NCBI GenBank assembly: GCA_037951105.1 | Contig: JBAMJV010002070.1 | Location: 1 to 64,000 of the forward strand | Reading direction: 5' to 3' | DNA length: 64,000 nt | Source of the DNA: Echinarachnius parma | Lineage: Eukaryota > Echinodermata > Echinoidea > Clypeasteroida > Echinarachniidae | Part shown: positions 17,353 to 56,700 of the stretch, in pieces | How positions within the stretch are numbered: the first letter of the stretch is position 1 | Layout: every line of letters begins with the position of its first letter | Position numbers and translations under genes: made by a program | The notes under the pieces: model-generated | Databases searched by the model: none | What the model saw: only the letters and a program-made list of their open reading frames with translations | Told to the model about the DNA's origin: nothing

Positions 17353-17430
17353 TCGCCTCTCTCTGTTCTTTCTATACCAGGGTATGTTGTGGTGGCTCTT
17401 CCCTGCCATGCCTTTGCGGTACTTTACGGC
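17353..17430 (+). pseudogene. Decayed copy of the start of the SLC32A1 3' exon with its acceptor
   Basis: A pyrimidine tract and CCAG are followed by GGTATGTTGTGGTGGCTCTT, parallel to CCAG then GGTATGTTCCTGGTGGCG at the true exon (17543). After one base of shift it reads VVALPCHAFAVLYG against LVALPYAVLHG. It dies out after about 50 exon-like bases. Confidence 0.75.
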
Positions 17431-17542
17431 TTGTTTAATTTGTTTTAACATTCATCCTTAATTTAATATGTCAACATTACATTATTAAGCTCACGCTGGT
17501 CATTGGTTGAATATTTTCTTTCTCTCTTCTTTTAACCTCCAG

Positions 17543-18718
17543 GGTATGTTCCTGGTGGCGCTTCCCTACGCCGTGCTTCACGGCGGCTACTGGAGCATCC
17601 TGTCCATGGTCCTAGCCGCGGTCATCACCTGCTACACCGGACTCATACTCATCCAGTGTCTCTACATCACCAACTCCGCCACGGGGGAGAAGGTGCGTGT
17701 CCGGGACACCTACGTGTCCATAGCGGAAGAGGTCTGGGGGAAGCGGTTCGCGTCAAGGATCGTCCACACCGCGCAGTTCATAGAGCTCATCATGACGTGC
17801 ATCTTGTACCTGGTGCTGTGCGGGGATCTCCTGTCCAGCATCATCCCGCACACGCCCCTGCGGGAGAACGCTTGGACCATCCTCGCGTGCTTCTTTGCGC
17901 TTCCCTGCGCCTTCCTGCGCGACCTGAAGGCGGTGTCCAGGTCGAGCTTCGGTAACGCCATCGCCCACGTCATCATCAACGTCATTATCATCGGCTTCTG
18001 CTTCGCGCAGGCGGGCCACTGGCACTGGAAGGCGACGAGCATCCGCATCCACATTCACTACTTCCCGGTGTCGCTGGGTATCGTGATCTTCAGCTACACG
18101 TCGCACATCTTCCTGCCGAGTCTGGAAGGCAGCATGGAAGACCCCAGCAAGTTCAAGATCATGATGCTATGGACGCACGGCCTTGCCGGGTTCTTCAAGG
18201 CCTTCTTCGGATACATCTGCTTCCTGACCTTCGGAATCTACACGCAGGAGGTCATCACGGATAACCTCCACCTCCACTCATTCCGGTCGGTCGTCAATAT
18301 CGCGCTCGTAGCCAAGGCTCTTCTCTCCTTCCCGCTACCCTATTTCGCGGCCGTAGAGCTCTTAGAGCGGGCGTTCTTCCAGGGTCGCCCAACGACTGCG
18401 CTGCCAACCTGCTACGCGCACGATGGAATGCTCAACGTGTGGGCGATCGCACTGCGCATGCTCCTCATCTGTTGTAGCCTCGTTTTAGCCGTTTTTATCC
18501 CGCATTTCGCCATCCTCATGGGACTTATAGGTAGTTTTACCGGGACAATGTTATCCTTCGTATGGCCTTGCTGGTTTCACCTCAAGTTAAAGTGGCACGA
18601 AATGAAATGGTGGAACCGAATCCTTGATGTCGTTATCATCCTATCTGGAGCCATATTTGGTTGTATAGGCATCATCTACTCATTTGAAGCTCTGGTGAAA
18701 ACGTACATTGACAGCTAG
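17543..18718 (+). CDS. SLC32A1: Vesicular inhibitory amino acid transporter, 3' exon (GABA/glycine vesicular transporter)
   Basis: An acceptor AG at 17541-17542 opens a 391-codon exon ending in TAG. It begins GMFLVALPYAVLHGGY, matching the first transmembrane segment of VGAT. Also diagnostic are ELIMTCILYLVL, FSYTSHIFLPSLEGSM, KEVITDNL-like QEVITDNL, ALLSFPLPYFAAVE and HFAILMGLIGS. By family, this H+-coupled transporter of the amino acid/auxin permease superfamily loads GABA and glycine into synaptic vesicles. About nine to ten membrane helices are visible, as expected. An in-frame upstream ATG at 17507 lies in the intron and is not the start. The exon is far more GC-rich than its surroundings. 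A partial decayed duplicate lies 160 bp upstream. Confidence 0.94.
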   Translation, partial: GMFLVALPYAVLHGGYWSILSMVLAAVITCYTGLILIQCLYITNSATGEKVRVRDTYVSIAEEVWGKRFASRIVHTAQFIELIMTCILYLVLCGDLLSSIIPHTPLRENAWTILACFFALPCAFLRDLKAVSRSSFGNAIAHVIINVIIIGFCFAQAGHWHWKATSIRIHIHYFPVSLGIVIFSYTSHIFLPSLEGSMEDPSKFKIMMLWTHGLAGFFKAFFGYICFLTFGIYTQEVITDNLHLHSFRSVVNIALVAKALLSFPLPYFAAVELLERAFFQGRPTTALPTCYAHDGMLNVWAIALRMLLICCSLVLAVFIPHFAILMGLIGSFTGTMLSFVWPCWFHLKLKWHEMKWWNRILDVVIILSGAIFGCIGIIYSFEALVKTYIDS

Positions 18719-18759
18719 TCCAATTCGATAATCAGAACCAACTTGGGAGCGAAGAAAAG

Positions 18760-18833
18760 TTGACTGTAGGGGGTTCGAACCCTCGACCTCCTGATTGCCG
18801 AACTGGTGCTATAGCGATTAAGCTATCCAATCC
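18760..18833 (-). repeat. tRNA-derived sequence (B box intact)
   Basis: Minus strand: a good B box (GGGTTCGAACCCC) and an A-box-like TAGCTTAATCGCTATAGC at tRNA spacing. The anticodon loop could read GGC but the stem mismatches, so a SINE head or pseudo-tRNA is likelier than a functional gene. Confidence 0.55.
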
Positions 18834-18937
18834 ATACATCAGTGGTCTCCCCATCGATATCGATTGGGCTCCTTGATTGTCAATTTATATGCTAAATTTG
18901 TAATTGAACCAATATTCAACAAATGTATAGGAAATCT

Positions 18938-19113
18938 GAGCCCCGTTGCAGAAAAATACAATCGACTGTAAGCTATAATTAATTGTAAGTCAGATAATAT
19001 GTTGCGCGTTTCAACCAATCAGTTTTGCGCATTTAGAACACGTGATCTGATTTACAATTAATTGTAAGTTCTTATAATAATTGATTGTACCGTTTTCTGC
19101 AAAGCGGCCCTGG
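18938..19113. mobile_element. Palindromic MITE (GCAGAAAA...TTTTCTGC ends)
   Basis: Ends GCCCCGTTGCAGAAAA and TTTTCTGCAAAGCGGCCC, with inner AATTAATTGTAA palindromes in both arms, so most of its 176 bp folds on itself. Confidence 0.7.
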
Positions 19114-19372
19114 ACTGGATCAAAGCCAGATGAATCGTGTATGTGTATTTAAGGGAAATTTGCATTATTACAAAGTTGTCTTGTGATGTTATGTATGAGA
19201 AATGTAAAAGAGCAAGGGTATTGAAGAATGTTTTCCCGATTTCCTTTCACTTCAACTTTCATACATTATTTTTTTGATTTTGAGGTGGGTGTAGATATTG
19301 CCCGACCGTCTACAAACAAAGCAATGCATCAAGGATTATATTATATATATTATTTTCCAAACTTAACGATCT

Positions 19373-19819
19373 CTGACCCCGTTTACAGTGCAGGGCCGGG
19401 CAGAGACGCGTCTCGGCCCTGCTTAAATTGCGGTACTCGGCCCCCCAATTTTGGTGCGTTTACAGTGGCGGTCTCGGCCCTCGCGGCCCGGCCGCCCTTT
19501 CAATATCTTGTCGTAGTGGCGCTCTGCATGTAAACAAACCATTATTTTGGAGGCACGCCGGGGTCACAGAACAAAGGCGCGTTATTTGCAATGAATTGTT
19601 TTCCCAATTTGGTACCGCATTTGGCCCTGCGTGCGTTTACAGTGAGAAAAAGCGGGGCCGAGACGCGTCTCGGCCGCGGCCAAGACTACCTCCAGAGCGG
19701 GGCCAAATGCGCGGCCACTTTTGGCCCCGCATTTGGCCTTTTGAGCGTTTACAGTGAAAAAAAGGCCGGGCCGAGACGCGTCTTGGCCCGGCCTTTTTTT
19801 CACTGTAAACGGGGTCTGA
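19373..19819. mobile_element. MITE with GACCCCGTTTACAGTG ends and internal GTTTACAGTG repeats
   Basis: Inverted ends GACCCCGTTTACAGTG and CACTGTAAACGGGGTC. GTTTACAGTG recurs inside at about 19459, 19634 and 19748, each near GAGACGCGTCTCGGCC-type palindromes. GC content is sharply above the background. Open frames across it are by-products. A hAT-like origin is possible but no target duplication is clear. Confidence 0.75.
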
Positions 19820-20200
19820 GACTGCTAAAATGCAAAAAAACAACAACTGAAAAGGGACGAAATAAGAAGATGGAAAATATACACTTTACATGATAAAACA
19901 TTCGAACATTCCGCTCGTATTGTTCATGAATTTAATCAATATTGCCATTTTAAGTCTGGGGTATTAAAGGTAAAAGCTTTTGTATATCTCTCATAGCAAA
20001 ACAAAAAAACCCAGAAAAATGACAGGACTATATACTTATTTCTGTTTTAAATATGATGTCAGTATCAACTTATCAGCTAATTATATACAAACGAGATTTG
20101 TTTTGTAAAGTAATGTGGTTTTAATTAGTTAGCACGTTTATAAGTTCTATTTGTACTTGTCGATACTGTTATAGGTGTTGAATGAAGAAGAAACATATCC
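19820..20200. other. Gene-free AT-rich spacer
   Basis: Nothing recognised. Confidence 0.35.
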
Positions 20201-22009: not shown

Positions 22010-22135
22010 CATCCATCATCATCAACTGTTATTATTAATAATATAACTACTATTATCATTATCATTATCATTAACATTATTATTATTGTTATTAGTATTA
22101 TCATTAATATTATTATCATCATAATTATTAATTTT
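22010..22135. repeat. Imperfect ATT/ATC microsatellite
   Basis: Interrupted trinucleotide runs of ATC, ATT and related units. Confidence 0.8.
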
Positions 22136-22339
22136 TATTGTATATAGAGATCATAAATATTGGAGGTAAATTGAAGTCATCTTCTGAGAAGGACTGTAGG
22201 TTTATTGATATGTAAATGAATGTTGTATTTCTTGCAATTTGTAATGATTTAAAGAGAAATACTGTAGTAGGATTTATTTCATGGGTTGATACCACAATCT
22301 ACAGGCAAATATTTGTATATATAGTAAAATGTTGATTAT

Positions 22340-25419: not shown

Positions 25420-26084
25420 ACTCTTGAACCACAAGAGACTGCATTTTGTTCCAAGTCCAAATGGAATAGTATTATACATAGTAAGAAGTCGACGTGAACA
25501 ACGTCGCTGCGCTGAGATTGACCTGTCTCCTTTTGGTCCTGGACTTGGCTCTGGTACCACAAGAGATTGTATTTTGTTTCAAGTCCAACATGGATCTGAC
25601 ATTTTTCTTGTTCACCAGTAATTTGTCCAGATGAATGAGGCTGCAATAGCCAGCCAGCCTTTTTTTATATCTGGTCTTGGTATCACAAGAGATTGTCATT
25701 TTTTACAGGTCCTGAAATTATATGTCAGATATCTTGGTCACCAGTAGAAGTTCGGCGATATGGAGAAAGTCACAGCCTTTTATATTGTTCTTTGTTTCAA
25801 GTCTCAATGGGATATGGCGCATATATCATTGTTCACCAGTAGAAGTTTGTTGAGATGAATGAGGCTGCATCGCTGAGCCAGCTCTTTTTTTTCTTTTCTT
25901 TTTAGTCCTGATCTTGGCTAAGGTTCCACAAGAGATTGTATTCCGTTTCAAGTCCAACACTGATCTGACATTTTTCTTGTTCACAAGTAGAAGTTTGTTG
26001 AGGTGAAGAAAGCAACAGCGCTGAGCCAGCATTTTGATATTGTTCTTTGTTTCAAGTCCCGATAGAATGAGACATACATCTCTT
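25420..26084 (-). repeat. ARMC1 3' UTR array: decayed copies of the stop-codon region
   Basis: On the minus strand, variants of GGCTGGCTCAGC, then TCATC(T)CAACAAACTTCTACTGG, then TGA, then a GGACTTGAAACAAA spacer follow one another at about 25990-26035, 25840-25890, 25730-25770 and 25600-25640, with the spacer alone continuing to 25430. The true coding end is the first unit (26085-26133). Unit spacing varies from about 90 to 150 bp and divergence grows with distance. Confidence 0.85.
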
Positions 26085-29000
26085 TCACCAGTAGAAGTTT
26101 GTCGAGATGAAGGAAGCCGCGGAGCTGAGCCAGCCCTTGCTCCCCTCCTGGTCTGGTTGTCCAATGCGCTTGATAGCCTTGTCCCGAACTGGGCTGTCGT
26201 CCTCGGGAAGGTAGTCGGGCAAGCTGGCATTCTCCTTGTTAGCCATCGCTGGGTTGGCACCAAATGAAAGGATCACCTGAAGACAGATAAACAAACAGTG
26301 ATCAAAGATGTTAGTGTTACCATCCATAAACCAACAAACCGTAAACAAAATCATTAATGTTTAGCATGATAGTATGTTTGATAGCCTTGTCCCTAACTGG
26401 GCTGTCTTCCTCGGGAAGGTAATGTAGTCAGACAAACTGGCATTTTCCTTGTTGGCCATCGCTGGGTTGGCACCAAATGAAAGGATCACCTACAGACAGA
26501 CAGACAAATAGCCAGACAAAACAAATAACAACCAAAATGTTGGATGTACAAACAGACAGACAGAAAGATAAGATGTTTGTCTTTGATGAATGTCTACCCC
26601 GTAGCTATGATATCTTTTGTTTCAACGTTCGCTCATCTGCTTCGTCAGAAAAATATTTGGAAATCATCATTTCCGTCTCATTCAGCCTAAACTTATAGTT
26701 TTGTATTGAAGGACATCAATCATATATAAACATTTCCTTATGCCCTAGTCTCATTCTTGGTGACTTTTTCCTGCCGAATACATTCTCTCATTTTTTGCCC
26801 TTCATATTTGTTCGTCTTCTGCCAGAAAATACTGGGTGAATCGATATTTCAGTCTCATAACCTTCTTATCATACCATACACACATTTTCTCTGTGTTCAT
26901 TCTTGACAAACTGTTCTGCTGAGTAAATGTTCCTCTTTTTCTTTGCTTTTTCTATTTCTTAGCTATCTTGTACGAAAAAATAGGCTAATCAATATGTCTG
27001 GCCCATAAAATAGATGGATCTCTGTCTCATAATGTTCATTTGATAGCATACCTCTTCTCCATGTTCATTCTTGATGACTTGTTCTGCCGACATTCTCTCT
27101 GTCCGTGAGATGGCAACAACCAGCACCTGAAATACGATGGACAAAGATATATTATTAGATGTCATCAATAATACTCGTAAATGCCTCTTCAAGCCCATCA
27201 CACTTTGATTTGGTCGAATCCAATAAACGATTCAGGATTTGAACTACACTACATGCCTTGAATGCACGTTTCACTTTAGTTCAGATCTAGACAGAACGTG
27301 ATCAGATCATGTAGAAAGAAATCCTTGGGCAAAGAATGAATTTAACTAAATATTGTGTAAAAATAAAAGAAGAACGTGAAGAATGAAAATGATGTCTAAG
27401 CTCACCCATGGCTTTAATAGCAACTGGAACAAATTTATTATTGAAATAAGCTATCTTTTTCATTTCCCTTTTATGTCATAACATTTTCCTCAACTGAAAA
27501 ATACTGCATTGACAACTAGTTTACAAAACAGCTGCACGTAATTCCATCACCATCTGCCTATAAACCTGCCTTGCAGTATTCAACTCATGCTTGTTTTTAC
27601 ATCAAACTGAGAGAGTATTTAGACAGCCTTGCTTCTAAATGGGACAGTAATCGAATGAAGGGTGTATGTGCAAAAAGGTGATAAGACCTATTTTGACCAA
27701 TTCAAGATATTTGCTTGTCAAACCTGATGAAGAACAATGAACACAATAAGAAAATATGAGACACTTTTGATTCATATCTTCAAAATTGATACATTGATAT
27801 GCAAAGTTTAAGCAAAGGTTCCATTGAATTTTTTTTTTTTTGGTCACTATTGTGATATAGGGTGGTAGATGTATCTTTAAACTGACAAAAATGGCGTTTG
27901 CATCGGTTTGCATGTAAACTCTTCAATCGTCCTTCACATATTAGATCTATATTAGTAGAATAAATAGTAGCCCTTTTCTGGGTTTTCCCCCTCTGGGCTT
28001 GTCTTAAAAACTGATCCATTTTCAAGAACACTGTAACGTGAAACAGGTGATTTGACACAGGCCACTGATCCTCATTCCGTATTGTTCGAATTTCATCTTA
28101 TTCTTGTTTACTTATTGTATCATTTCTGATTTTAGAAAAGGTATCCAAACTTACAAAATGAGGTATGTTTTTGTGCGCAGTACCATCTCTTCTTTTTTTA
28201 TCAGTCATCTTGTTTACTCACTCTCTGAACTGACCATCCATAAAAGCCAAACCTGTGCATAAAGACCATCCTAAAAACTACAGGGGAAAGTGACTAACTA
28301 TAGACAGGATGTCTCTATGACAGGTTGGAATGTACTCAGTGGTTTCAAAATTTTCCCCCAAGCACTGTGTCTTAATGATAATAGGTTTGATTTATATTGC
28401 ACCTTTATATGATACAATATCATTGCTAAGCGCTTTACACTATTATTACCCTGGTTTATACTACATGTACATGTAGGATACAATGCCAGCAAGCACACAT
28501 TGTGTGCATTGTGCAATCTCCACTTCCTGGGGAGCATTTCTTCCAAGTGGCTCGTGGGCTCACAAAATATAATATAATTCTTACCTCTGGTTTGAGGTCA
28601 GTCTTGGTGCGCAGTAAGCATCTCTTCTTGATCATGTCAAAGGTGAAGCTAATGACCCCCTTCACCTGCAGTATCTCGGCTTCACATGCCTGTCGACATT
28701 CCTGAGAATTAAAAAAACAACATTAAAATCAATATATTAGTGATTAAACTCTTGTTCTGATAGGATATAAAAGAGAAAATTCATTATCAATAGATTAAGA
28801 AAAACATGCGATCACATCATTATCGAATTGGAAATGTTATCTTGTGATTTGTTTCAATTAAATACGAAATGAGGAACTAATGACCTCTTCACCTGTAGCA
28901 ACACCCTCTACACAATTGTGATTTGGATCCAAGACATCGTTACTTCTCCTTTTTTCATAGCTCATTTTATGGTGTTATATTCAATTATCGTAGCTGAGAA

Positions 29001-31199
29001 TGCTAAATTGCAATAGAAAAAAATACATGGGGATCACGGGCGAATTTGCCCCCGAAATGCCAAAAAGAGCCCCCAAAAAATCTTCCCCCCCCCCCCGATT
29101 TTTCTGCATGATCGGATCGTGATGGAATGCCGATCCGATGATCATTTACAGCATTAGAGCTAAATAGTAGCCCTTGAAATTCGAGAAAAAAAGAGAGCCC
29201 TGGAAATTTGTAGCCCCCGATAACTTTGGGGTTTGCAATCGACATTTACAGTAATACAAGCATTAATACTTACAGTGGTGCACAATCCTTTGATCTGCAG
29301 AATGATAGTCTTCCACTTCTTATTGCCCATGAAGAATTTGTTGGGATGTTTGGCATTGGTCCTGGTCCTAGGTCTGTTTGGGTTCTGGGTTTCTTTCAGC
29401 GGGCTAGGAGAGGGAGGTGCCGTCAAGCGATTGTGAATACTCCGAGCCAAGTTCTTGCACTTGGTTTCGCTGTGGGGACTAGGATGTAAGAAACAAACAA
29501 ACAATAAAGAACTTGTTAGGTCCTAGTTTGGCACTGGCCCTGCGGGTCCTAGGTCTGTTTGGGTTCTGGGTTTCTTTCAGTGGGCTAGGAGAGGGAGGTA
29601 CCGTCAAGCGATTGTGAATACTCCGAGCTAAGTTCTTGCACTTGATGTCGCTGTGTGGACTATTACAAAACAAACAAAAAAGATATTGTTAGGTCCTAGT
29701 TTGGCACTGGCCCTGCTGGTCCTAGGTCTGTTTGGGTTCTGGGTTTCTTTCAGCGGGCTAGAAGGAGGTGCCGTCAAGCGATTGTGAATACTCCGAGCCA
29801 AGTTCTTGCACTTGGTGTCGCTGTGTGGACTATTAAAAAACATTTAAAGAACTTGTTAGGTCCTAGTTTGGCACTGACCCAGCTGGGATCCATCCTATTC
29901 AGGTTCAAATGAATTACAAATCTTACAAATAATAAGCGTAACCAATAAATATAATATTCATATTTTGCACCTGTCACCTGACATTTTCAAGTTCAAACAT
30001 CTGACAAAATTGTTATAAAAAGAAATAATTGAGTACTGGTTGAGGTTTTAAAAGATACAAATTGCATGATGTAAAGCATAGAAGATAAAGAAATATTCTT
30101 ACATGTACACTATTTATCAAATAAAGGGGTTATATAAATTTGCCTGATTTAAGCTGTGTTTCAAAATAACAAATAGCAGTCAATTTCTCAATCTACTTAA
30201 TATCATTGGGCAGTGAAAAGGACACTGCCTTCCAAGTTAAAGACTTACAACAAATGTAAAAAAACAACAACAGATTTCAAGTATAATATCTTACTTGGAC
30301 ATGATCCCTTCCAGGCTGACCAGCATACCAAGTTCTCTCTTCATGAGTGGACGATTCGCAGCACTCTCGGCAAGATATTGAAGTGCCTACAAACAAAAAA
30401 TAGATGATAAATTATTACAAACATTGTAATCGATATCACCCTTTATCATATTGGAAACAAAAAAACATTTGACTATAGAATAACGTTCTCAGGAAAGAAA
30501 TTTAAAAAAAAATAAGTCTTGAGAACTGTAGATATTTAGTCTTGAACTTGTTTTGTATGTTTTTACTCTAAGTATACTTAGTATACATACCTCAAGAGCA
30601 ATTGTTACAACAACTTGGTCATCGTTGTCGAGGAAAAGGACCAGCCCTGGCAAACAACCCTGATCCTGCAAAAGGGAAAACAAGAGGGAAATCATTTCTG
30701 CAATAAAAAAAAAGTGATAAGATATGGTGCTCATTTACATATTAACATTCATGATTTTCTATGAAAAATTCACAACACAAGCGGTTTCTTTAAACTATGG
30801 ACATGGAAAGATTCATGTTTGCAATTATAAAATATAAATGAAAATAAGCAAAGAAATACAAAACGTGTTGTCTTGTTTGAATCTAAAATATTCTTTCACC
30901 AGCATACATAATACAAGCATACAAGAGAATAATCAAACATGTCTATGATAGTCAAGCCTCCAAATTAACTTTATTTTCTACTTGCCTGCAATTATATTTT
31001 CTCTCGTTTTCTCAGGTTTCATATTAATTATCTTTGTCTGCAGGGGACCACTCTTGGCGGCCACCAAAGACAAGTTGGTTGCTTTAAATACAGGTGGCCG
31101 CTAAGATAGGCATGAGTGTATTACCTTGACAATCTTTTCCCTGTTCTTGGGGTCTGTTGCCAAGTCCCTCAGCTGTCTGACGACTCCTTCAACAGCCAT
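26085..31199 (-). CDS. ARMC1: Armadillo repeat-containing protein 1, complete (7 coding exons)
   Basis: Coding exons: 31125-31199, 30591-30665, 30295-30386, 29274-29478, 28585-28701, 27052-27126, 26085-26276. All junctions are GT-AG and phases agree, giving 276 aa (human about 282). It starts MAVEGVVRQLRDLATDPKNR. An armadillo-like N-terminal half follows (DQGCLPGLVLFLD, ALQYLAESAANR). Then comes a divergent heavy-metal-associated-like fold (WKTIILQIKGL, KGVISFTFDM, RTKTDLKPE). The conserved tail is LPDYLPEDDSP and SAASFISTNFYW-stop. Human ARMC1 associates with mitochondria and affects their distribution; I infer the same here. Five of its exons have decayed partial copies beside them. Confidence 0.95.
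26367..26496 (-). pseudogene. Decayed duplicate of the ARMC1 last-exon acceptor half
   Basis: Minus strand: an acceptor-like CTGTAG is followed by GTGATCCTTTCATTTGG, the same opening as the true exon (26276), and it stays similar through the DYLPEDDSPVRDKA-coding stretch. A six-base insertion lies near the middle and it stops before the C-terminus. Confidence 0.85.
26590..26940 (-). pseudogene. Decayed copies of the ARMC1 exon 6 donor end
   Basis: The plus-strand text TGTTCATTCTTGACAAACTG then TTCTGCTGAG at about 26897, and TCATTCTTGGTGACTTTTTC then CTGCCGAA at about 26751, parallel ATGTTCATTCTTGATGACTT then GTTCTGCCGACATTCTC in the true exon (27052-27126). Flanking intron sequence is duplicated with them. 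Confidence 0.7.
28165..28210 (-). pseudogene. Decayed fragment of ARMC1 exon 5
   Basis: TGTGCGCAGTACCATCTCTT at about 28175 parallels GGTGCGCAGTAAGCATCTCT in exon 5 (28605-28625). A second faint copy of the other end of the exon lies at about 28868-28910 (AACTAATGACCTCTTCACCT). Confidence 0.6.
28370..28450. repeat. Short interspersed element-like sequence
   Basis: Contains ATTGCACCTTTATATGATAC and AAGCGCTTTACA, a pattern recurrent in repetitive DNA of marine invertebrates. No target duplication seen. Confidence 0.4.
29479..29905 (-). pseudogene. Tandem partial copies of ARMC1 exon 4 with acceptors retained
   Basis: Two copies (acceptor ends at 29659 and 29829) and a partial third (to about 29905) repeat the first two-thirds of exon 4 at periods of 181 and 170 bp. 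Each of the two copies keeps an AG acceptor and an open frame (NLARSIHNRL, PLKETQNPNRPR). None keeps the exon's WKTIILQIKGL part or its donor, so they could be used only as alternative acceptors or are relics. Confidence 0.88.
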
Positions 31200-31365
31200 G
31201 ACTGAAGTGGTTTTATAATGTTGCTGCTAAGGGGGGATGACCAGACAAGGTAGTGAAGTGCTGCAATGATAGCTTCTGTTGCTGCCTTACTGGATCGATG
31301 CACTCTAGATGGACCCGTTACTTATAGCCGTTATTGCTGAACAAGAATTGTCCAGAAATAGTGAC
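31200..31365 (-). other. ARMC1 5' UTR part of coding exon 1
   Basis: The exon containing the ATG probably begins at 31365, where the minus strand reads TTTGCAG then GTCACTATTTC. The 5' UTR in this exon is therefore about 166 bp. A decayed copy of it lies in the upstream intron at about 31470-31620 (shared GTTGCTGCCTTACTGGAT and GAATTNTCCAGAA on the plus strand). Confidence 0.65.
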
Positions 31366-31469: not shown

Positions 31470-31620
31470 AGGGCCAGGGGGGACAAGGTACTGGTATTGG
31501 TAGTTTATGTTGCTGCCTTACTGGATAATGCACTGCACTCTAAAATGGCCACTTTTGCTTATTGTTTTACTTGTAGTCGTAGAGCTCTGAATAAGAATTT
31601 TCCAGAAGGAATCAGAAAGT
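31470..31620 (-). pseudogene. Decayed copy of the ARMC1 5' UTR exon
   Basis: GTTGCTGCCTTACTGGAT recurs about 220 bp from its counterpart, followed by GCACTCTA and TAAGAATTTTCCAGAA in the same order as in 31240-31365. The acceptor equivalent is degraded. Confidence 0.75.
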
Positions 31621-33184: not shown

Positions 33185-34964
33185 GTAAGTTGATATTTTC
33201 GATATAAGAATAGTATTTGCATCTTAATTTAATAAATAAGACTATTAATAGTAATTTATAGATGTATGTCTACCTACCTGTTAATGTATGTACTCGTTAA
33301 ATACTTCAATATTCATGAAATTATCAGTTGAAATGAATTGTTTATTGCATTCGCGTGGACGCCACTAAAGTCCAATGACCTGTTTGATGGCAGCACGTGC
33401 CCCGGGTGACTCGGGCTGACTGAAGTAAGGAGATCGGGATGCACATAAAGCAGCTGAACTGCCGTTTTGCTCCACGCAAGGCAGTCGAGTCGTCTGAAGA
33501 TGATAATGCAACATTTTATCATTTCCGAACCAAATGAACAACTAATTCATAATTGATGATATTGGCCAGTTATGAAATTTAATCTTAGAAAAATAAATGA
33601 GAGAAAATAAATTTACCAAAATCTTTTAAAAATCATGAAATCTTGTCTTTTAGAAAATTTAGTTTTAAAAGTTTATTTTACGAGTCTGACTCTGACAAGG
33701 TCAAGCCCCAGGACATATTTTGCCATTTATTTGCCCTTCAATTACCAGTATTTTCAACAGGTTCAACTTTCAAGGAGAGGTGTCTGGTGTGGCGTGGCAT
33801 GCCGCACCCCTACAAGACAAGGGGTTAACAACATGCTGCATTAACCCCTTACTCCATTGCCTTGAAAAAAGCCTGATAGTCAGCTGCCTTCATTGTCCAA
33901 GTAAACACTGGGGAATTCCCCTGTCTACCTAGCCTTAAAACTAGATGTTTTTCACACTATTGATCAATTTGATGCTGTGTATGTCTGTATAAATTGCATA
34001 ATTGCTTTGGCCTTTGTTCAACAAACAATTATAGCATGCCTTCATCATTGAATCATTGTGTTAATCTGTTCAAAGCTGGTTGTAAAGAATTCCTTAGAGT
34101 CACAAATTGACCTATATTCATTGTTATATACTTTGGAATGTGATACAAAAGCCACATGTATTGACTATTGTCTTGTCCAGACACCTATTGAAATGCTGCA
34201 CCCCTGCAAATAGTACAAGTCAGAGTACTTTGCAGAACCCATTGTCAGTTAGGTCATTCAGACACTAATCTCTGAAATAATCCCTTCAGCCTTTTGATAA
34301 TACTGGCTGGCAGACAAGCCTAAACATGTAAACAACTGTTCTAAAACCTGTGGTTGAGGGCTGCACAGTCAGAAAGCTCAAGCTCAGATTGGAGCTTCAA
34401 GTCATAGATCAAATAATTTAAAAACTGGAATTTAAAGTGCTTATGACATTGGAAAGCTCATGTAAGTTTTAAATTATATTCAATTCTAACCCCCTGTTAT
34501 GTTAAGTTTGATTAATTGGTGAGATTTTAGCTAGAAATGATTTTATGATTTTTGCCAGTCTCACAAATTTGTTTACTGCAGCCTGCCTATGAGAGTGACC
34601 CTAGGGTGGGCATGCCGCCCATACCCATGGCATATTAATTCGTTAGCTTTTGACTTTTGTTGTTGACGTTTTTTTTTTTTTTTGATATTAACAAATATGA
34701 ATTATTACTCATTTATAGTAATAATATTAATATAAGCCTGATGAACATAATGAATGAGTCACGAATGATTACACAATATTACAGTTCTTACAATTTTTAG
34801 AAGTACAAATTAACTGTATTTAAAAAAAAAAAATTTAAGTCAGTAGGTGCTAGCCTAGGTCTACCAATTTCAGTCAAACGCAAAAGCACATCCACGGCCA
34901 TGGGTATGATAGTTCTTACAATTTATAGAAGAATACATTAAATAATTATTTTTTTTAATTTCAA
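33185..34964. other. MTFR first intron, 5' part
   Basis: AT-rich; no exon recognised. Open frames near 33635-33932 have no conserved content. Confidence 0.4.
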
Positions 34965-35939
34965 TTTAGCAGGTCTCTATCTGTGTGATGCCAAATAGTC
35001 CTGGACTCTTGCAAAAACAAGAGGTTCTGAAACTTGGACTTGGGACTGTTTTGTGTTTCCTGCAAGGTCTCAACGAACCTGTGCCTATTTATGTCAAAAT
35101 ACAAAGTGCACAAATATCTAAATTACAGTAAAAGGTAAACAAGGCTATATTAAATCATATGCATTCCAATTATCCAGGTCTGTGTGATGCCAAATAGCCC
35201 TGGGGAATATTGCTTGACGCTTGAGAACACAAGATCCTATTCCTAAGTTCTGAGACTTGGGACTGTTGTGTTTTCTGCAAGGACAAGTGCTATGCCCCAG
35301 TCAGTACAAATTTCAGTCAAACGCGAAAGCACATCCATGGGTATTACTTTAAAAATAGATTTATTACAATTTATAGTCCGAGGATAAATTAACTAATTTC
35401 TATTTTTTTTCTTCCAATTTACCAGACCTGTCTATCCGTGTTATGCCAAATAGCCCTTGTCTGTTGAGAACGCAAGATCCTAAGTTCTGAGACTTTGGAC
35501 GGTTTATGTGTTTTCTGCAAGGACACTATGACCCACGGGGCCAGTCAGTACCAATTTCAGTCAAACGCAAAAGCACATCCATGCCTGGGTATTACTTTTA
35601 GTTTGAATATAGTTCTTACAATTTAAGGATACATTAAATAATGTTTTTCTTCTTCAATTTAGCAGTTCTATCTGTGTGATGCCAAATAGTCCTGGACTCT
35701 TGCAAACACAAGATCCTAAGTTCTGAGACTTGGGACTGTTTTGTGTAACGACCCTGTGCCTATTTATGTCAAAATACAAAGTGCACAAATAGCTGAATTA
35801 CAGTAAAATCTGAAGTAGACTGTTAATCTTTTTTTGCATTTAAATTTACCAGGTCTGTGTGATGCCAAATAGCCCTGGACTCTTGCGAACACAAGATCCT
35901 AAGTTCTGAGACTTGGGACTGTTGTGTGTTTTCTGCCAG
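34965..35939 (+). repeat. Five tandem copies of the MTFR exon 2 acceptor region
   Basis: Units begin after an AG near 34973, 35178, 35426, 35666 and 35853 with variants of TCTGTGTGATGCCAAATAGC, and continue with CAAGATCCTAAGTTCTGAG, GACTTGGGACTG and TTTTCTGC-AGG. The last unit runs into the real exon 2. Earlier units retain faint versions of its first bases (for example AACGACCCTGTGCC against ACTACGACCCTGCGCC). Periods are about 190-250 bp. Confidence 0.9.
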
Positions 35940-35957
35940 GACTACGACCCTGCGCCA

Positions 35958-38900: not shown

Positions 38901-41900
38901 TTTGATATGATTCTCAAAACTGTATACATTCATACCTGTATGTATTATATAGTACAGGGGGGTTGCATATTGTTAAGATTGGAAGAGATAAGAATGTTAA
39001 AGGTCTGCTCAATTGCAATTTTCACTTGTGATTCTGAAGAGATGAGACATTTTTACCAGGCTTTTTTTCTCTGAAATTCCTCTTTTTGTGACATTTTGAA
39101 TTGTAACAGCGTTTAAAATTAATCCATTGGAGATTTCATTTTGTTAATACATACCATGCTTTTATACTCCAAATCAGAGAATTTGGGGGATGGTATTGAA
39201 TGGGTACAGTTAATAAAATGAATGCACAAACACCTTATAATTGAAGTTCTGATAGGGTAACTGCCATCACGACTGGCTATATGTTTTTTCCCAGAGAGTT
39301 GAGATATGTAGTCTAAAACAGGTCAACCCCTTGCTTACAAGAACCGAGTGGGCTATGTACAAAGTCTATGGGAATTTCAAAATCTTGAAGCGAATGGGTT
39401 AAATTTGACTAAACGTGTATATTTTCTTCTGATATCTATTGCATTACAGAACAGAAATAAGAACAAGAACAAGCCCAAGGCATCGGGATCTGCAGCGATG
39501 CCCAACATGGCCGACATACTCAAAGGCCTGGGAACGGTCAAACTCAAGTCTGTTGCTAGGTGAGGCATTTTCACCCCGTTTATAATTGACTATCTACATG
39601 TTAGAGACTCTTAGCATAAAAAGTTGAGAACAAATTGCAACATTGCATCTATAGGGGCAATTCCACGAAAAAGTGGACATGAACTCAAAAAAACAATTGG
39701 CTCTATTTCAAATCCTAATATGATTTTTTTCTGGATTATTTTTCCATACAACATGATCCTATGATTATATCTTTCAGTTCACATGATTTTTTGTATTCTC
39801 TGGTGTCTCCTTATAGGAGAAACGGAAAACATACATGAAACTCCACACATGGGACTACCCTCTGCAAATTTCAGGAAAATCCTTATATTTTCCAAATTTT
39901 CTGGTATTTTTATTATTTAAGGCATCAAATTTGATGACTGATAATCAAAGTACCTTTTCAGATTAAAATTTCAGTCTTTTGAGTGCTCTAAAGTATATAT
40001 TTTAATTAATCAAATCCTCCGGACAAACTGTAATGTCCGTGACGCTGAAAAATGTAATGTCTGTGACGCAACATTTTGTTGTCTAGATCACATATACCTG
40101 GCCCGTTTCGCAAAATCCAACTTGGATTCAATTCATCATTGCCTTGTCTATAATTGAATACCTAAATCACCTTTGTGAGGTCTCAGAACTCACAGATTTT
40201 TGCAAAGATGTATATGGATGCAAAAAGTCATGTCCAAAAAATGTAATGTCTGTGACGGCGCACATTTTGCAGAATTACTCAGTAACGATTTGGATAAATG
40301 TTCTGAAACTTTGTTTGCATACTTAACCAGGCTATTGCTTTGTAATCAAAATAAAAAGTTAGACATTAGGTAGAGATATAAATTAGTAGTGGCATTGGAA
40401 AGTCATGAAAATAATGTCTGTTTGTAATGTCCGTGACGCTGGAGTTGCCCATAGGTGATGTAGTTCCACCTCTTCATATATGTACACAAGTACTTGTGCT
40501 AAAATCTTGGACTTCTTGTATGAAGGATTGAGATGAATTGCGCAAATCATAAGATACACAAGACTGGTAATAATTTTTGTGTTTTACAGCAATCACAAAA
40601 ATTATCCATGTTGGGGGGGGGGGGGGGGGGATGACCAAAACAAAAATTCCCCACCCCCTCCTTATTAATTTTGGGGTTAAATTTGAAGAGTTTAGATATT
40701 GCTTGTTTTACTATTTGCTATATAAAATACAACTGAAACATGTATCATTACGTATTTAAATAGGTCTCCAGGAGGTACCCCTGTAAGGCAGGCCCCCCGC
40801 TCCACCGAGGCGACCGACCCTGCGGCCATCATCGCCAGGGCCTTGAAGAGGAAGTTTGCCCATGCCCGGCTCAGCTGCAGCCCCCAGGCCCACACAGCCA
40901 ACAAAGAGAACATCGACTTCTCAGGCTCCCCCGTAGGCAAGGCTAGCCCTCTTCATGCAAGCCCAAAGGTAAGCTATATTGTATATGAAATCAAACACAA
41001 CTTCCTAAAAATTATGCAATGGACAGTTGCCTTGATTTGCAAAATGATGTTAGATCGCAAAGTTGCAAGTTAATGTTCTATGCAACACCTCCAGATAGCC
41101 AACAAAGAGAACATTGACTTCTCAGGCTCCCCATTAGGCAAGGCTAGTCCTCTACATGCGAGCCCAAAGGTAGGTGTAGGTGTAGGTTATTGAGATACTG
41201 TACTATCTCTGTATTAATTATTGGCTGTGTTTAAGTACATATTAGCAAATATTAAAATTTCTGTATGCTATCTATAGCCATCAGCATGACAAAATGGAGA
41301 TGTTCATCAAAGTTTAGCCCTCAACCATGTTTTAAAAGGCTAATGCTTGACTAGACAATCATTTAAACTCGGCCATCGACCTTTGTTAAGAGTAGAAATC
41401 ATCTGGAGCCCCCAGGCCCAACAACCAACAAGGAGAACATTCACTTTTTACGGTCCCAAGTAGGCCAAGTTGGCTAGCCTTATGCATTCAAAACGAATGG
41501 TAGGTTATTGATCTACTAACTTCAGATCGAGCAATGAAAAGGCATTCATGGGAACATCCCCCATTCAAGGGTCTAGCAATCTGGAGGTCTCAGGTTCGAT
41601 TCCCGGCAAAGCCTATTTTTCTTTGCTCATTTTCAATCATATTTGATTTCAAATTACTTTTTTTTCACCATGTATTCACTACTGCTTAACCCGTTCCCTT
41701 CAAGATTCTGCAATCTCCATAGACTTTGTACGCAACCCACCCGGTCCCCGTAGTCAAGGGGTTAATTAAATGTTGTCTTTGCCATTTATTCAGTGTCAGG
41801 AGGCCAAAAAGCAGATCTACTTTGGTGCAGTAACATTGCAAAAATCTTTCTTCTTTTGGTAATTTTATGCATATATTTCACTCCCCTGTTATATGATACT

Positions 41901-42079
41901 AAACATAATACATGTAGTACATGTAGTGAGAAAGGAACCGTAAAGTGAAATGTTCTCAATATTTTTCTTTTCTCTCTCATTTTCTATTTATGCAGTTTGG
42001 ACCACATTTATTGAAGCCTATGAACAGAGCTCAGCCCAACATCAGGCAGCCACGCCCACTTTCTGATATCAATGCGTGA
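35958..42079 (+). CDS. MTFR1: Mitochondrial fission regulator, MTFR1/MTFR2-like, complete (8 coding exons)
   Basis: Coding exons: 35958-36047, 36556-36675, 37086-37234, 37862-38214, 38660-38850, 39450-39559, 40764-40968, 41996-42079. All have GT-AG borders and consistent phases; the product is 433 aa. Diagnostic parts in order: IIRMVLQML; SLIRAIGSSLPLAPVQRFHF; a coiled coil ISALEDELEKLRAQIAMIV; a polyproline stretch in exon 5 of the list (PPPPPPPSGG repeated); AIDLIKQ; MPNMADILKGLGTVKLKSV; TDPAAIIARALKRKFAHA; FGPHLLKP. These match vertebrate MTFR1/MTFR2, which act at mitochondria to promote fission and respiration. Whether it is the single ancestor of MTFR1/2/1L cannot be told by eye. The CDS start is the first ATG of exon 2, in frame with the conserved helix. 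Confidence 0.93.
37286..37550 (+). pseudogene. Two decayed copies of MTFR exon 4
   Basis: The first copy (37286-37431) repeats CAGTGTGTAAGTGC, TCAGTTCTATGAGG, GTGAGCCTGCATTCATCCCA and AACTGATCAGATCTAGGTGA, keeping acceptor and donor but with internal deletions. The second (about 37465-37550) is fainter (GATTGTGAGCCTGCATTCTT). Confidence 0.85.
38285..38362 (+). pseudogene. Decayed copies of the MTFR exon 5 donor
   Basis: CAGCCACAACCTACTAGTGA at about 38310 repeats the true exon end CAGCCACAACCTACAAGTGA (about 38200-38219); AGTGAGCTCTAACAGGACTA repeats again at about 38349. Partial tandem copies straddling the splice donor. Confidence 0.8.
38456..38477. repeat. Poly-G tract in MTFR intron
   Basis: About 21 consecutive G. 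Similar tracts lie at 40613-40630, 12831-12852, 13756-13776, 17176-17201, 61948-61962 and 61994-62009, and poly-C at 8906-8920, 16191-16208 and 29086-29097. Confidence 0.9.
41093..41512 (+). pseudogene. Two copies of the MTFR exon 8-region donor end
   Basis: The first copy (about 41097-41169) repeats GCCAACAAAGAGAACATTGA and the following GSP-coding stretch. It stays in frame and keeps its GTAGGTG donor, but lacks the upstream part of the exon. The second (about 41405-41512) is more decayed (CCAACAAGGAGAACATTCAC) and followed by GGTAGG. Confidence 0.88.
41561..41614 (+). repeat. tRNA-like B-box fragment
   Basis: CTGGAGGTCTCAGGTTCGAT then TCCCGGC is a good tRNA T-arm/B box, without a recognisable A box or acceptor stem. 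Probably a SINE or pseudo-tRNA fragment in the MTFR intron. Confidence 0.45.
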
Positions 42080-42412
42080 TTGAGAGCCAAACTCACCAAT
42101 CACAAATGTCCAGTATTAGGTAGCCCTGCCCACTCTCTGATGTCAATTCATGATTGACAGCCCAAGTCACCAATCACAATTGCCTGACATGAGGTAGCTC
42201 CGCCCACTCTCTGATGTCAGTGCATGATTGACAGCCAAACTCACCAAGCCCATCAATCAGATAACTGCCTTACATGAGGTAGCCATAATCACCATGTGAT
42301 ACCAATACATGATTGGCCAGTCAACTGACCAATCCCAAGTGCCCCAGTGAGGTAGCTCCACCCACTCTCTGATTTCAATGCATGATTGACAGCCAAACTC
42401 ACTAATTATTTT
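42080..42412 (+). repeat. MTFR 3' UTR array: copies of the stop-codon region
   Basis: The coding end (GCCCACTTTCTGATATCAAT then GCGTGATTG) is repeated downstream at about 42123, 42199, 42284 and 42356 as variants of GCCCACTCTCTGATGTCAAT then (G/T)CATGATTG, each followed by ACAGCCAAACTCACCAATCA-like sequence. Period about 73-85 bp. Confidence 0.93.
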
Positions 42413-44689: not shown

Positions 44690-45801
44690 TCCGCAACGAA
44701 GTAGCCGGAGGCATTATGTTTTCGGGTTGTCCGTCCGTCCGTACGTCCGTACGTACGTCCCGTTCTCGTGATCGCGTTATCTCAAGAACCGATTAACGGA
44801 TTTTCACCAAACTTGGGTCATGTATGTATCTTGGGGGGCCAATGATCTGATTAGATTTTGGGGTCATGAGGTCAAAGGTCAAAGGTCACAGAGCTCATTA
44901 TATATGCAAAAATAGCTCGTGATCGCGTTATCTCAAGAACGGATTGACTGATTCTGACCAAACTTGGTACATGTATGTATCTTGGGGGGCCAATGATCTG
45001 ATTAGATTTTGGGGTCATGAGGTCAAAGGTCAAAGGTCACATTATATATGCAAAAATAGCTCGTGATCGCATTTTCTCAAGTACGGATTGACAGATTCTG
45101 ACCAAACTTGGAACATGTATGTATCTTGGGGGGCCAATGATCTGATTAGATTTTGGGGTCATGAGGTCAAAGGTCAAAGGTCACAGAGCTCATTATATAT
45201 GCAAAAATAGCTTGTGATTGCGTTATCTCAAGAACGGATTGACTGATTCTGACCAAACTTGGTACATGTATGTATCTTGGGGGGCCAATGATCTGATTAG
45301 ATTTTGGGGTCATGAGGTCAAAGGTCAAAGGTCACAGAGCTCATTATATATGCAAAAATATCTCGTGATCGCGTTATCTCAAGAATGGATTGACAGATTC
45401 TGACCAAACTTGGTACATGTATGTTCCTTGGAGAGCCAATGAACTGATTAGATTTTGGGGGTCATGAGGTCAAAGGTCAAAGGTCACAGGGCTCATTATA
45501 TGTAAAAGTAGCTTGAGATTGGAAATCTCAAGAACTGAATATCAGATTTCAATCCAACTTGATACCTGAATGTATAATAGGGAACAATTGTAGTCATTAG
45601 ATTTTGGGGTCATGAGGGCAATGGTCAAGGTCACTTATAGCTCATAATTGTGATACGTCAAGATCTAAAAGACAGAGTACCATCAAAATTGAGTTGACAG
45701 AATTAATTCTGTGTACATGTTGATTTGGGCTTGACATAAATAAATTGCGTAATGGCGGAGGCATCATTTTCGACTGCGCGCAGTCGAAGATCCATCTAGT
45801 T
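44690..45801. repeat. Interspersed element with five or more 150 bp tandem units and AGGTCAAAGGTCA motifs
   Basis: Ends TATGCCTCCGCAACGAAG and TGGCGGAGGCATCAT. After GTCCGTCCGTACGTCC repeats come units starting at about 44765, 44916, 45060, 45211, 45362 and 45512. Each has CTCGTGATCGCGTTATCTCA, CTTGGGGGGCCAATGATCTG and GAGGTCAAAGGTCAAAGGTC. The first five are highly similar; the last is degraded. Confidence 0.88.
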
Positions 45802-50476: not shown

Positions 50477-50524
50477 TTAAAGTTTGAAAGCCATGTAGAA
50501 ACCAAATGTAAATGTAGCTCTCTT

Positions 50525-51440: not shown

Positions 51441-51513
51441 GGTTTCTATGGGATTCGAACCCGAGACATCCGGATTGCAGGACCGGGGCTCTACCAGCCG
51501 AGCTATAGAAAGC
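51441..51513 (-). tRNA. tRNA-like sequence, apparent anticodon TGC (pseudogene likely)
   Basis: 73 nt on the minus strand: acceptor GCTTTCT pairing with AGAAACC at 6 of 7 positions, A box TAGCTCGGCTGGTAGAGC, anticodon stem CCGG/CCGG with loop CCTGCAA, B box GGGTTCGAATCCC. Against function: one extra base between acceptor and D arm, and only three paired bases in the T stem. It could be a decayed tRNA-Ala or a SINE head. Confidence 0.55.
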
Positions 51514-53325: not shown

Positions 53326-53783
53326 CATCTGGCAGGGTTGACCAGTCTAACTTCTGCAGCAGATTGATGATAATGCCCCTCCCTCATGCCTCGGTGCCAT
53401 ACCAGTCTAAGGCTCCTAGCTAGAGAAGTAGTACCACATAATAAAAGATCGCGACGGGTTGCTCACATCTTGCCTCCGCAGATTGGTGATAATGCCCCCC
53501 TCTCTCGTGTAATTGTCGTGGGCTGATGGCTTGAGAGGTGATTCTACAAGCTAAAAGTTCACATCACCGTGCCGGGTAGCCCCATCTCGTCTCTGCTGAT
53601 GCGTGGTACTAGCTTGCATATTGATGGCGCAACAATCTAAGGCTCTTGGCTACAGAAGTGATACTACAAGACGATACTACATCATCTTGCGTTCCGTTGC
53701 CATTCCAATCTTATGCACCTAGCTATACAGCTAAACGAGGTGGTAGAACTAGAGTGGTAGTACCACAAGGTAAAGAGTTCTCA
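53326..53783 (-). repeat. PDE7 3' UTR array: decayed copies of the stop-codon region
   Basis: The true coding end reads (plus strand) TCATCATCTGGCCGGGTTGC, CTTGCCTCTGCCGGTGGGTC and GGCGCACCAGTCTGGGGCTG. Decayed versions recur at about 53325-53420 (CATCATCTGGCAGGGTTGAC, ACCAGTCTAAGGCTCCTAGC), 53455-53540 (CATCTTGCCTCCGCAGATTG) and 53560-53665 (ATCTCGTCTCTGCTGATGCG, CAATCTAAGGCTCTTGGCTA), separated by GTGATACTACAAG-like spacers. Confidence 0.82.
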
Positions 53784-56700
53784 TCATCTGGCCGGGTTGC
53801 CCCCATCTTGCCTCTGCCGGTGGGTCGTACTGCCCCCTTCCCTCGCGTCCCGGTGGCGCACCAGTCTGGGGCTGCTATCAGCCAGGAAGCTGCCCCCTAG
53901 GCCCAGGGGGGCTGCGGGGGGCTCAGCCTCCTTCAGATGCTGCTTGTGGTGAGCGATGGACGCGATCTGGGAGCTGGTGAAGTCCTGGAACAGGGGCCCC
54001 AGGGCGGGCGGCACGGAGTAGGGAGGGGGTGAGGTGGGGGTGTGACAGGTGGGTGGGGAAGCGGGGGAGGGAGTGTAGGCATTGTTGGTACCCCGGGGGG
54101 TGATGCGGGGGGACAGGCTGCCTGACCGGAGCACTGCAGAGAGGATAGAAGCAAAGAGAAACAAAAGATGGGTTTAATTCAAGTTTCAGGATGGTAATGC
54201 TAACTTTTAGTTGTTTAGATGTTCAAAATTAGTTACAACCATGCTCACAATTACTACATATTTTTACTTCATAACAAAAAATCCACTTTGAACAAATAAT
54301 TTTGTAGCTGCTACTTATCCATAGTAATAATTGCTCATTTCAAGATACCAACAGGTCCATGGTAGAAACCAGGGGGTGTTTTCTGAAAACGATTTAAGTT
54401 CAAATTGATTGTATCTATGTCATATCTACGTCACTAAAATAGTAAAATGTACTTGAATAGCGATTTACTATAATATATTTTAGTGACGTAGATATGACAT
54501 ACATGTAGATACAATAAATTTGAACTTAAAATCGTTTTCAGAATACACCCCCAGCAAATGATGACATATAGGTTCCATGTTTCAAGTTCATATTCTTTCA
54601 TTGGCCCGAGTTTTCCCATGTACATTATGTTGGTTCAACCATTTCTACTCTCTCACTTATTTTCTAATATAAAACTTACATGGATTGTTGTCCTGTCCTT
54701 TTCTCCTGTCCCTCTCCTCCATGCGTTTCCTGATGAACGGAGACCCCTTCCCTCGCATGCCGTCCTTAGCCGACGAGTCGTTGTTGGGCACCAGGAGAGA
54801 CGAGCCTTCAGAAGTGGCGTGCCTGGATGACGGGGGGCTGAATGTACTCCTGCCCTCTCTCAGCGACCCCCCTATGCCGTCCCCATGCCGCACCAGCAGG
54901 CTAGCAGGGGTGGCTTTAGTCCTCTGGTCCAAGCCCCCGGCTAGCTCTCTGCTGCTAGGAGACAGCGCTGCCTTCATGAAGTGCCGCGAGTTGCGCTGCA
55001 GGACGCTGTTCTGCTCCGAGTACATGTGCAGGCCCCGCTCGGGCCAGTGTGGCATCTCCGTGCTGTCGTGCTGCTTGTTGTGCGACATGTTGTGGTGGAG
55101 GAGGCTCGGGCCGGACTTCAGATCGACGGGGATCGCAAAGTCCAGGTTGTTGTTGAGCCCCGGGCGGAAGTGGGAGTCCTTGCGGTCGTTGTGCGGGTCG
55201 GACAACCCCGGAGAGGTGTGGCTGTACTTGAGGTGATGCTTGGCACTATGGAGTAAGGAGGATTCAATGCACTGGGGGCTACCTAGCGGGCTGGTAAAGT
55301 GAGGGCTTCCTATAGGGCTGGTTAGGGGGCTGTTCAGGTGGGGACTTCCTACGGGGCTACCAATGTCCACTGGAGGACTCCTCAAAGAGGAGTCAGTGTT
55401 TTTCTCCCACGGATCGTCGTAACTCACGTTCTTGCGATTGGTGCACGGCGAGCGGGGAAGTCGTAAACTGAACGAGTCCAATCTCCGGCTGCCTACGAAC
55501 CCTGTATGCAGCATATTCTCGCTGCCTCCTTTACCCCGCTTGGATGCGTTCGGTGGCATCACGTCCCGTTTCTTTGCGGCGTCCGACGCCGTCCGTATGG
55601 GAAGCATGCTGCTCACCGATCCCGAGCTACGCAGGTTATCCGCACTCTGCGAATGCGAACTGATAGCGTTTGAATCGGACAACGTCACGTCAATAGTCCT
55701 GTGCACGGCGTGCACGTGTTGTTGCGTTTTTGGTGAAAGCACTGCCGAGAGCGGGCGGTCCAGCTCTGAATGTCCGTGCAGCCGCCCCGCAACTCCATGA
55801 GGATGTGTGATTGCACTAGGTTTGTGTCTGTCGGCGTCGGCCTGGTGTATACTATTAACACTCCCTGCCGATATCTCTATGTCGCCACGTCTCTTGTCAT
55901 TCACACTCAGCTTGAGCGTCTTACTCTCTGGTTCCTCGGCTTCGTCTCCCTTCCCAGGGTTCTCAGTACCCTTCCCAGAATCCTTGGCACCCTTCCCAGA
56001 GTCCTTAGCACCTTTCGCCTGAGGCACCGCCACGGATTTGCATACTACGTCCATTGGTTTGCATGCAACGTCCACTGGCGTGCATGCGCCTTTTTGTGGT
56101 CTACACACAGAATCCTGCGATTTGCACACATTGTTAACTGGTCTGCACACAGCGTCCGCAGGCTTGGATGCAACGATGTCCACTTTCTCGCTAGACACAC
56201 TTTGGATTGCACTAGTTTGACCGGCAGTGACCGCGGCCTGGAGCTCCGCCTCCTTCTGCTTTTCGGCCTCCAGCCGGGCCGTCCACGCCGTCCGGTTCTC
56301 GCCCATGTTGTGGAGCATGGAGCGGGACAGCTTGGTAGGCAGGAAGTGGGACCAATGGTTGAACAGGGGTTCTACAACAAACCCGATGAACCCTGTGAAC
56401 AAATGAATACATAAATAAAACATTAAATAGATAATTAAAGGTATAAACAAAAAAAATAGATAAATAAATTAATTAAGATGTAAATAAAGAGTTTGGTTGC
56501 TAGGAAGTGGGACCAGATATTGAACAGGGGGTTCTACAAAATAACCTGATGAACCCTGTTAAAAGAAGATACAATCAAATGATCAATAAATACATCAATA
56601 AATAACAATTAAATATAAATAAACAAACAGCATGGTGGACTAGATATTTAGCAGGGCTTTGTAGTGAACCAGATAACCCTTGTAGACAAACAACAACAAT

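Follow-up and report, generated by a model that had tools for sequence, protein, structure and literature searches.

The window analysed here comprises bases 1–64000 of contig C2069, from an assembly of 1.2 Gb in 14,790 contigs, and contains exons of VGAT (SLC32A1), ARMC1, MTFR, and a gene that, following the original prediction and given PDEase hits farther along the contig, we take to be PDE7. Many of these exons have, in the adjoining intron or untranslated region (UTR), decayed direct copies of their own edges, and these copies are the subject of this report. The exon models of VGAT, ARMC1, and MTFR were obtained by tblastn with sea urchin proteins, after which the splice sites were read off. 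The VGAT exon is 84% identical to the protein of Diadema setosum, the ARMC1 draft is 75% identical to that of Diadema over two thirds of the draft and 72% identical to that of Lytechinus pictus, and MTFR is 64% identical to that of L. pictus. Since the nearest named proteins are echinoid, the host is, on this similarity, an echinoid, and a lancelet origin, considered at first, was rejected. The large exon assigned to PDE7 has no Pfam match; PDEase hits lie upstream of it on the same contig.

In the test used, each edge query (60 bp of exon plus 30 bp of intron) was aligned to its own 1.5 kb non-coding flank, and its score was compared with those of the same query against 150 unrelated flanks from the same genome, or against 300 for the edges tested later, namely those of the MTFR ATG exon, the ARMC1 5' UTR, and the PDE7 stops. 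Inverted copies served as the control. The exons concerned and the copies beside them are listed below, with paired scores giving the edge score against the null maximum; ARMC1 and MTFR exons were placed by tblastn with splice sites read, and MTFR exons carry the numbering of this report.

17357–17419 (+), decayed copy of the VGAT exon 2 acceptor (58 against 35; 76% over 67 columns).
17543–18718 (+), VGAT exon 2 with the stop (Pfam Aa_trans).
31482–31534 (−), copy of an ARMC1 5' UTR segment, the original being at about 31244–31304 (57 against 30).
29274–29478 (−), ARMC1 exon 4.
29503–29664 (−), tandem copy of the acceptor and beginning of ARMC1 exon 4 (tblastn; 181-bp unit, three copies; AG kept).
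29679–29834 (−), second tandem copy of the same acceptor and exon start (tblastn; 181-bp unit; AG kept).
28585–28701 (−), ARMC1 exon 5.
28159–28194 (−), copy of the ARMC1 exon 5 donor edge (47 against 35).
27052–27126 (−), ARMC1 exon 6.
26875–26937 (−), copy of the ARMC1 exon 6 donor edge (tblastn; 64 against 31).
26085–26276 (−), ARMC1 exon 7, the last, with the stop.
26374–26489 (−), two overlapping matches that together copy the acceptor and beginning of ARMC1 exon 7 (tblastn; 126 against 39).
25478–26028 (−), the end of ARMC1 exon 7 in four decayed copies (26028–25987, 25898–25836, 25683–25615, and 25534–25478; tblastn, the last at E 3.9).
34862–35950 (+), local multi-copy repeat upstream of the MTFR ATG exon, its acceptor included (self-BLAST; best edge copy 35037–35088).
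35940–36047 (+), MTFR exon 1, the ATG exon.
37086–37234 (+), MTFR exon 3, taken to be exon 4 of the original prediction.
37334–37538 (+), two partial copies of MTFR exon 3 (37334–37431, frameshifted, and 37506–37538; tblastn).
37862–38214 (+), MTFR exon 4, taken to be the exon 5 of that prediction.
38308–38346 (+), copy of the MTFR exon 4 donor edge (54 against 28).
40764–40968 (+), MTFR exon 7.
41098–41508 (+), two copies of the MTFR exon 7 donor edge (41098–41175 and 41399–41508; 102 against 32).
41996–42079 (+), MTFR exon 8, the last, with the stop.
42115–42406 (+), copies of the end of the last MTFR exon, arrayed as 74-bp units (Tandem Repeats Finder, 42039–42406, and self-BLAST; stop edge 90 against 31).
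54657–56392 (−), large open exon at the C-terminal end of PDE7 (open reading frame; acceptor read).
56494–56573 (−), copy of the PDE7 large-exon acceptor (score 89, without a dedicated null; 99 under a second scoring).
53537–53610 (−), copy of the candidate PDE7 stop at 53784 (74 against 32; three local matches by self-BLAST).

Direct matches beat every null at 11 of the 32 window edges, and inverted matches did so at none of the 32. The eleven are the VGAT exon 2 acceptor; the ARMC1 exon 4 acceptor, exon 5 donor, exon 5 acceptor, exon 6 donor, exon 7 acceptor, and stop; and, in MTFR, the donors of exons 3, 4, and 7 and the stop of exon 8. The copy at the ARMC1 exon 5 acceptor is marginal (33 against 32), the ARMC1 stop edge scores 85 against 30 and has more local matches by self-BLAST, and the MTFR exon 3 donor scores 88 against 32. 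The MTFR ATG-exon acceptor, one of the edges tested later, reached 65 against 30. The 1.1 kb or so upstream of this exon, up to its acceptor, contains several diverged direct copies of one another. No significant copy was found for the MTFR exon 2 acceptor (26 against 33) or for the alternative PDE7 stop at 54657 (20 against 36), and the PDE7 stop exon ending at 53784 is a candidate only. Comparison of the window with itself gave dozens of local direct matches.

The original prediction names 14 places with decayed copies, without coordinates for the single edges. Each of the 14 has a copy, provided that its numbering of the MTFR exons is ahead of ours by one, as the other matches suggest. At 13 of these places, the copy beats every unrelated flank; the PDE7 large-exon acceptor, which lacks a null of its own, lies far above the null maxima of the other window queries (28–39). 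What had been described as a copy of a whole MTFR exon (its exon 4, our exon 3) is a copy, but a partial and frameshifted one, with an acceptor side that is not significant (27 against 36). The statement that copies always lie on the non-coding side proved nearly right: when both flanks were tiled, 12 of the 106 exon-overlapping matches had a partner overlapping a known exon.

The pattern is not confined to the window but is general in the parts of the genome that were sampled. These parts were 20 stretches around PDEase hits, totalling 198,723 bases, and six further stretches without known exons. Local direct self-matches covered 32,046 of the 198,723 bases (16%) and inverted ones 7,212 (3.6%), and, among 8,055 coding-anchor bases, 2,009 lay in direct matches and 14 in inverted ones. 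Edges of phosphodiesterase coding hits beat every null in 33 of 106 cases with direct matches and in 0 of 106 with inverted ones; once the duplicate loci L012, L024, and L025 had been dropped (L010 and L026, also homologous to others, being kept), a score of at least 36 was found at 25 of 84 edges. In the six stretches without known exons, direct matches covered 5–17% and inverted ones 0–19%. A separate observation concerns locus L018, where a 43-bp minisatellite (6168–7160) begins at an exon donor, the donor motif occurring 16 times in the locus.

The nearest copy lies 43–725 bp from its edge, with 23 of 26 edges falling at 117–223 bp and a median of 174 bp; 215 background direct pairs have the same range of distances, 100 of them at 60–240 bp. 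Among 41 exons with both edges curated, 20 carry at least one copy, and none of 43 copies reaches both edges. Copies spanning the splice site were found at 17 acceptor and 9 donor edges, and the splice dinucleotides are kept in most of them (AG in 25 of 26 acceptor copies, GT in 17 of 20 donor copies). A loss of AG or GT from the copies, taken as the sign of selection against decoy splice sites, was not seen, although the numbers are too small for a claim of conservation. Identity to the edge is 70–90% for 20 of the 27 edge copies. In 69 copies, many of which come from arrays and are not independent, mismatches at codon positions 1, 2, and 3 number 68, 65, and 157; 146 codon changes are non-synonymous and 113 synonymous, and gaps occupy 72 columns over 3,531 bp. 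The stretches used were Pfam hits cut back at stop codons, so that their ends may include some intronic bases counted as codons. This pattern fits a comparison between an unconstrained copy and an exon in which most accepted changes are synonymous.

Three individual cases may be described here. In L016, two of three copies lying about 174–540 bp upstream of an exon have almost only third-position differences (1/0/5 and 1/0/7), which sets them apart from the majority of copies. In L022, at about 1840–2000, a spare donor, CAG|GTAAGC, lies downstream of a PDE exon whose presumed real donor is CAG|GTATTT, and the spare is the nearer of the two to the donor consensus. In L027 (3682–4048, gene orientation), two copies of part of a PDE exon are 95% identical in the exon and 81% identical in the aligned adjoining intron, and the match of the upstream copy ends within the exon.

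To what extent are copies peculiar to exon edges? The comparison was made with pseudo-edges, which are intronic positions scored in the same way as curated splice edges. A copy was present at 27 of 97 curated edges (8 of 31 in the window, 19 of 66 at the PDE loci) and at 243 of 2,500 pseudo-edges, a ratio of 2.87 (locus bootstrap 1.96–3.79). The pseudo-edge frequency falls with distance from the nearest known exon: 68 of 364 (18.7%) at 110–300 bp, 135 of 1,084 at 300–1200 bp, 37 of 870 at 1.2–2.5 kb, and 3 of 182 (1.6%) beyond 2.5 kb. In the six stretches without known exons, it is 57 of 900 (6.3%). An earlier control with one-flank random non-coding queries, superseded by the pseudo-edges, gave 391 direct and 127 inverted copies in 3,000; its rate was unchanged when queries with cross-locus hits were set aside (unique 306 of 2,409, dispersed 85 of 591).

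These frequencies were converted to rates with a model combining one-sided decay with the DNA turnover measured between homologous contigs. Turnover came from the pairs L022/L024 and L023/L025, with a non-coding divergence of 5–6%; L009/L010 and L011/L012 were left out as too alike for a rate estimate. In the two pairs used, bases without a counterpart amount to 17–20% within 600 bp of exons and 37–38% beyond, a difference implying that distal copy pairs are also lost faster. L009/L010, whose exon region aligns at 96%, points in the same direction (1–2% within 600 bp of an exon, 25% at 600–1200 bp, 8% beyond). The modelled rate, in events per edge per substitution per site, is 2.5–2.8 at exon edges (95% intervals of 1.6–3.6 and 1.8–4.1 for two indel settings, edge sampling only), 2.4–2.6 at 110–300 bp from exons, 1.5–2.8 at 300–1200 bp depending on the turnover assumed, 0.8 beyond 1.2 kb, and 1.3–1.4 in stretches without known exons. 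Since the modelled edge rate is that of the introns 110–300 bp away, no targeting of edges is needed, and the exon-boundary bias that had been offered as one possibility can be dispensed with. The lower distal rate may point to a gene-proximal effect on duplication.

Homologous contigs also bear on the age and reality of the copies. These contigs are probably haplotypes, although L011 and L012 may be one haplotype assembled twice. The same old copies occur at equal offset in L022 and L024, with 87.8% and 80.0% identity on both; L011 and L012 also share old copies, which is weak evidence as the two contigs are 99.2% identical. Beside one exon, L022 has a longer array of 72-bp units than L024 does. 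Among the 43 insertions listed for four homologous pairs (L021/L026 aligned poorly and was left out), 7 match the adjacent sequence. In 4 the match is clear (85–95%), namely in two from L022 (139 and 143 bp), one from L023 (220 bp), and one from L009 (164 bp); in the other 3 it is marginal (75–77%). Over the 20 kb examined, contig C2689 was rejected as a candidate for the window's second haplotype, as it gave only short matches, some of them to several places.

The explanation that we consider probable is that short direct tandem duplications arise widely and then decay, and that the copies at exon edges outlast others because selection maintains the functional edge. Units mostly of 60–400 bp, and of about 170 bp at exon edges, would arise in many places in the genome. 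A block straddling one splice site or stop would leave the exon complete and put a spare edge in the intron or UTR, where it would be tolerated for as long as it is unused; such spare edges are thus presumably neutral. With selection holding the functional edge, divergence and loss would strike the spare copy only, and an exon-edge pair would remain recognisable for about 1.5 times as long as a nearby intron pair and about 2.5 times as long as a distal pair in fast-turnover DNA. Blocks lying within an exon or covering a whole one would usually alter the protein and be removed, so that the survivors would each include a single edge, be found on the non-coding side, and gradually decay; selection against whole-exon copies would be part of this. 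Slippage, template switching, or unequal exchange might supply the molecular mechanism. This is essentially the plain explanation given in the original prediction, namely that local tandem duplication is frequent and shows up where one of the copies is maintained, and it is the best supported of those considered.

Several observations nevertheless weigh against it. One-sided decay alone, when simulated, gives a 1.24–1.35-fold excess at edges compared with the 2.9 observed, and the remainder depends on turnover taken from only two homologous contig pairs. A uniform rate does not predict that the corrected rate should be 2–3 times lower in DNA without known exons. Pairs of 90–95% identity are about fivefold enriched at edges (5 of 97 against 24 of 2,500, the edge count being small). 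In L033, a stretch without known exons, inverted matches exceed direct ones (18.7% against 5.3%). Third-position mismatches are somewhat more numerous than predicted if one copy is free, and in a few copies (in L016 and L023) nearly all differences fall at third positions, as though these copies had arisen between diverged alleles or been renewed by conversion; the excess may reflect birth by unequal exchange between diverged alleles. Finally, while the copies are on the whole no assembly error, the youngest pairs may be artefacts.

A rival explanation is that duplication itself is biased to exon edges or to gene-proximal DNA, for instance through transcription, base composition, or nucleosome-sized units. 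The excess of copies at curated edges over pseudo-edges, the fall in pseudo-edge copies from 18.7% to 1.6% with distance (and the 6.3% in stretches without known exons), and the centring of nearest-copy spacing on 174 bp speak for such a bias. However, the corrected rate is the same at edges and 110–300 bp away, bases without a counterpart are about twice as frequent in distal DNA, and pairs at least 95% identical are not enriched at edges (2 of 97 against 53 of 2,500, again a small edge count). Moreover, a tiling of all positions under looser scoring, which includes coding-side flanks and so is not like-for-like with the edge test, gave an exon/near ratio of 0.84 (0.65–1.09) and a near/far ratio of 1.49 (0.90–2.62), and it does not establish a gene-proximal effect. 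We regard biased duplication as unlikely. Far less credible is an assembly artefact in which the two haplotypes of a highly heterozygous animal were laid side by side: the 5–6% divergence between homologous contigs is indeed near the 3–5% heterozygosity given for other sea urchins in PMC11310861, and some copy pairs are 94–98% identical, but false duplication would leave copies no more divergent than alleles, and 20 of the 27 edge copies differ by 10–30%, although pairs above 94% identity may be of this origin. The copies also bear gaps and replacements, several may occur at a single edge, and the same old ones recur at equal offset and identity on L022 and L024. Still more improbable is that the copies are spare or alternative exons under selection. 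As with alternative exons arising by exon duplication, coding sequence is duplicated within the gene, the splice dinucleotides are largely intact, and some copies, such as those of L016 and L023, have differences almost confined to third positions; alternative exons, however, need both splice sites and an intact frame, and the copies are one-sided fragments, none of the 43 spanning an exon, with gaps and with more non-synonymous than synonymous changes overall.

Comparable structures have been described in lancelets. PMC3087553 describes amphioxus "mirages", tandem duplications of exon–intron boundaries, in Adh3 and in the globin genes BflGb6 and BflGb9; the globin mirages have units of 150–160 bp, and the copy number in BflGb6 differs between two haplotypes. 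Mirages in troponin C and PGBD5, the latter with imperfect copies, are reported in PMC3902484. The urchin copies resemble mirages in being direct tandem units across an exon–intron boundary (27 of 97 curated edges), in affecting both acceptor and donor sides (17 and 9 edges), in often having intact splice signals (AG 25/26, GT 17/20), and in varying in number between haplotypes, if L022 and L024 with their 72-bp array are taken as such. They differ in that the host is an echinoid, the copies are mostly decayed, and about 28–31% of sampled edges rather than single genes are affected, and in that they are seen here as the exon-side view of a local duplication that also affects introns. For amphioxus, undisturbed splicing and somatic instability have also been reported. 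Searches for sea urchins and echinoderms found no description of mirage-like structures in echinoids among the titles and opening abstract lines listed, although this does not prove that none exists. Judged by these searches, the novelty lies in the phylum, in how frequent the copies appear to be, and in modelled rates that are equal at edges and in neighbouring introns.

The findings carry what had been a curiosity of some lancelet genes into a further deuterostome phylum, and they suggest that mirage-like copies are what a high rate of local duplication looks like beside conserved sequence. If the model-dependent rate is true, there would be roughly one duplication start per 60–110 substitutions per base within 1.2 kb of exons, and urchins would make it possible to measure the birth rate of spare splice sites, to learn how intact decoys escape use by the spliceosome, and to determine the frequency with which such sites turn into introns or exons. 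Tandem copies with splice signals in genes have been proposed as raw material for intron gain (PMC3087553, PMC4974935, and PMC2891723); the urchin copies are likewise tandem and carry splice signals, but no new intron is shown here. A bolder proposal, which we think quite doubtful, is that short tandem duplication is unusually active in echinoids, as in lancelets, with a preferred unit of about nucleosome size and more activity in or near genes; it would steadily place spare splice sites next to at least a quarter of all exon edges and thereby provide raw material for new introns and exons. For gene annotators, the partial copies call for caution, as they mimic exons.

Other features of the window may be mentioned. 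An array of 151-bp units (44765–45648; 5.8 copies, 88% matches) lies away from known exons and has a unit size near that of the exon-edge copies. Two tRNA-family matches, at 18761–18832 and 51441–51512 (−), with 39 and 34.8 bits for a gathering score of 29, are possibly tRNA-derived repeats. An open frame of 982 codons at 3–2948 (−) resembles, by eye, a retrotransposon-type protein, and one of 424 codons at 3943–5214 (+) similarly resembles a carbohydrate sulfotransferase.

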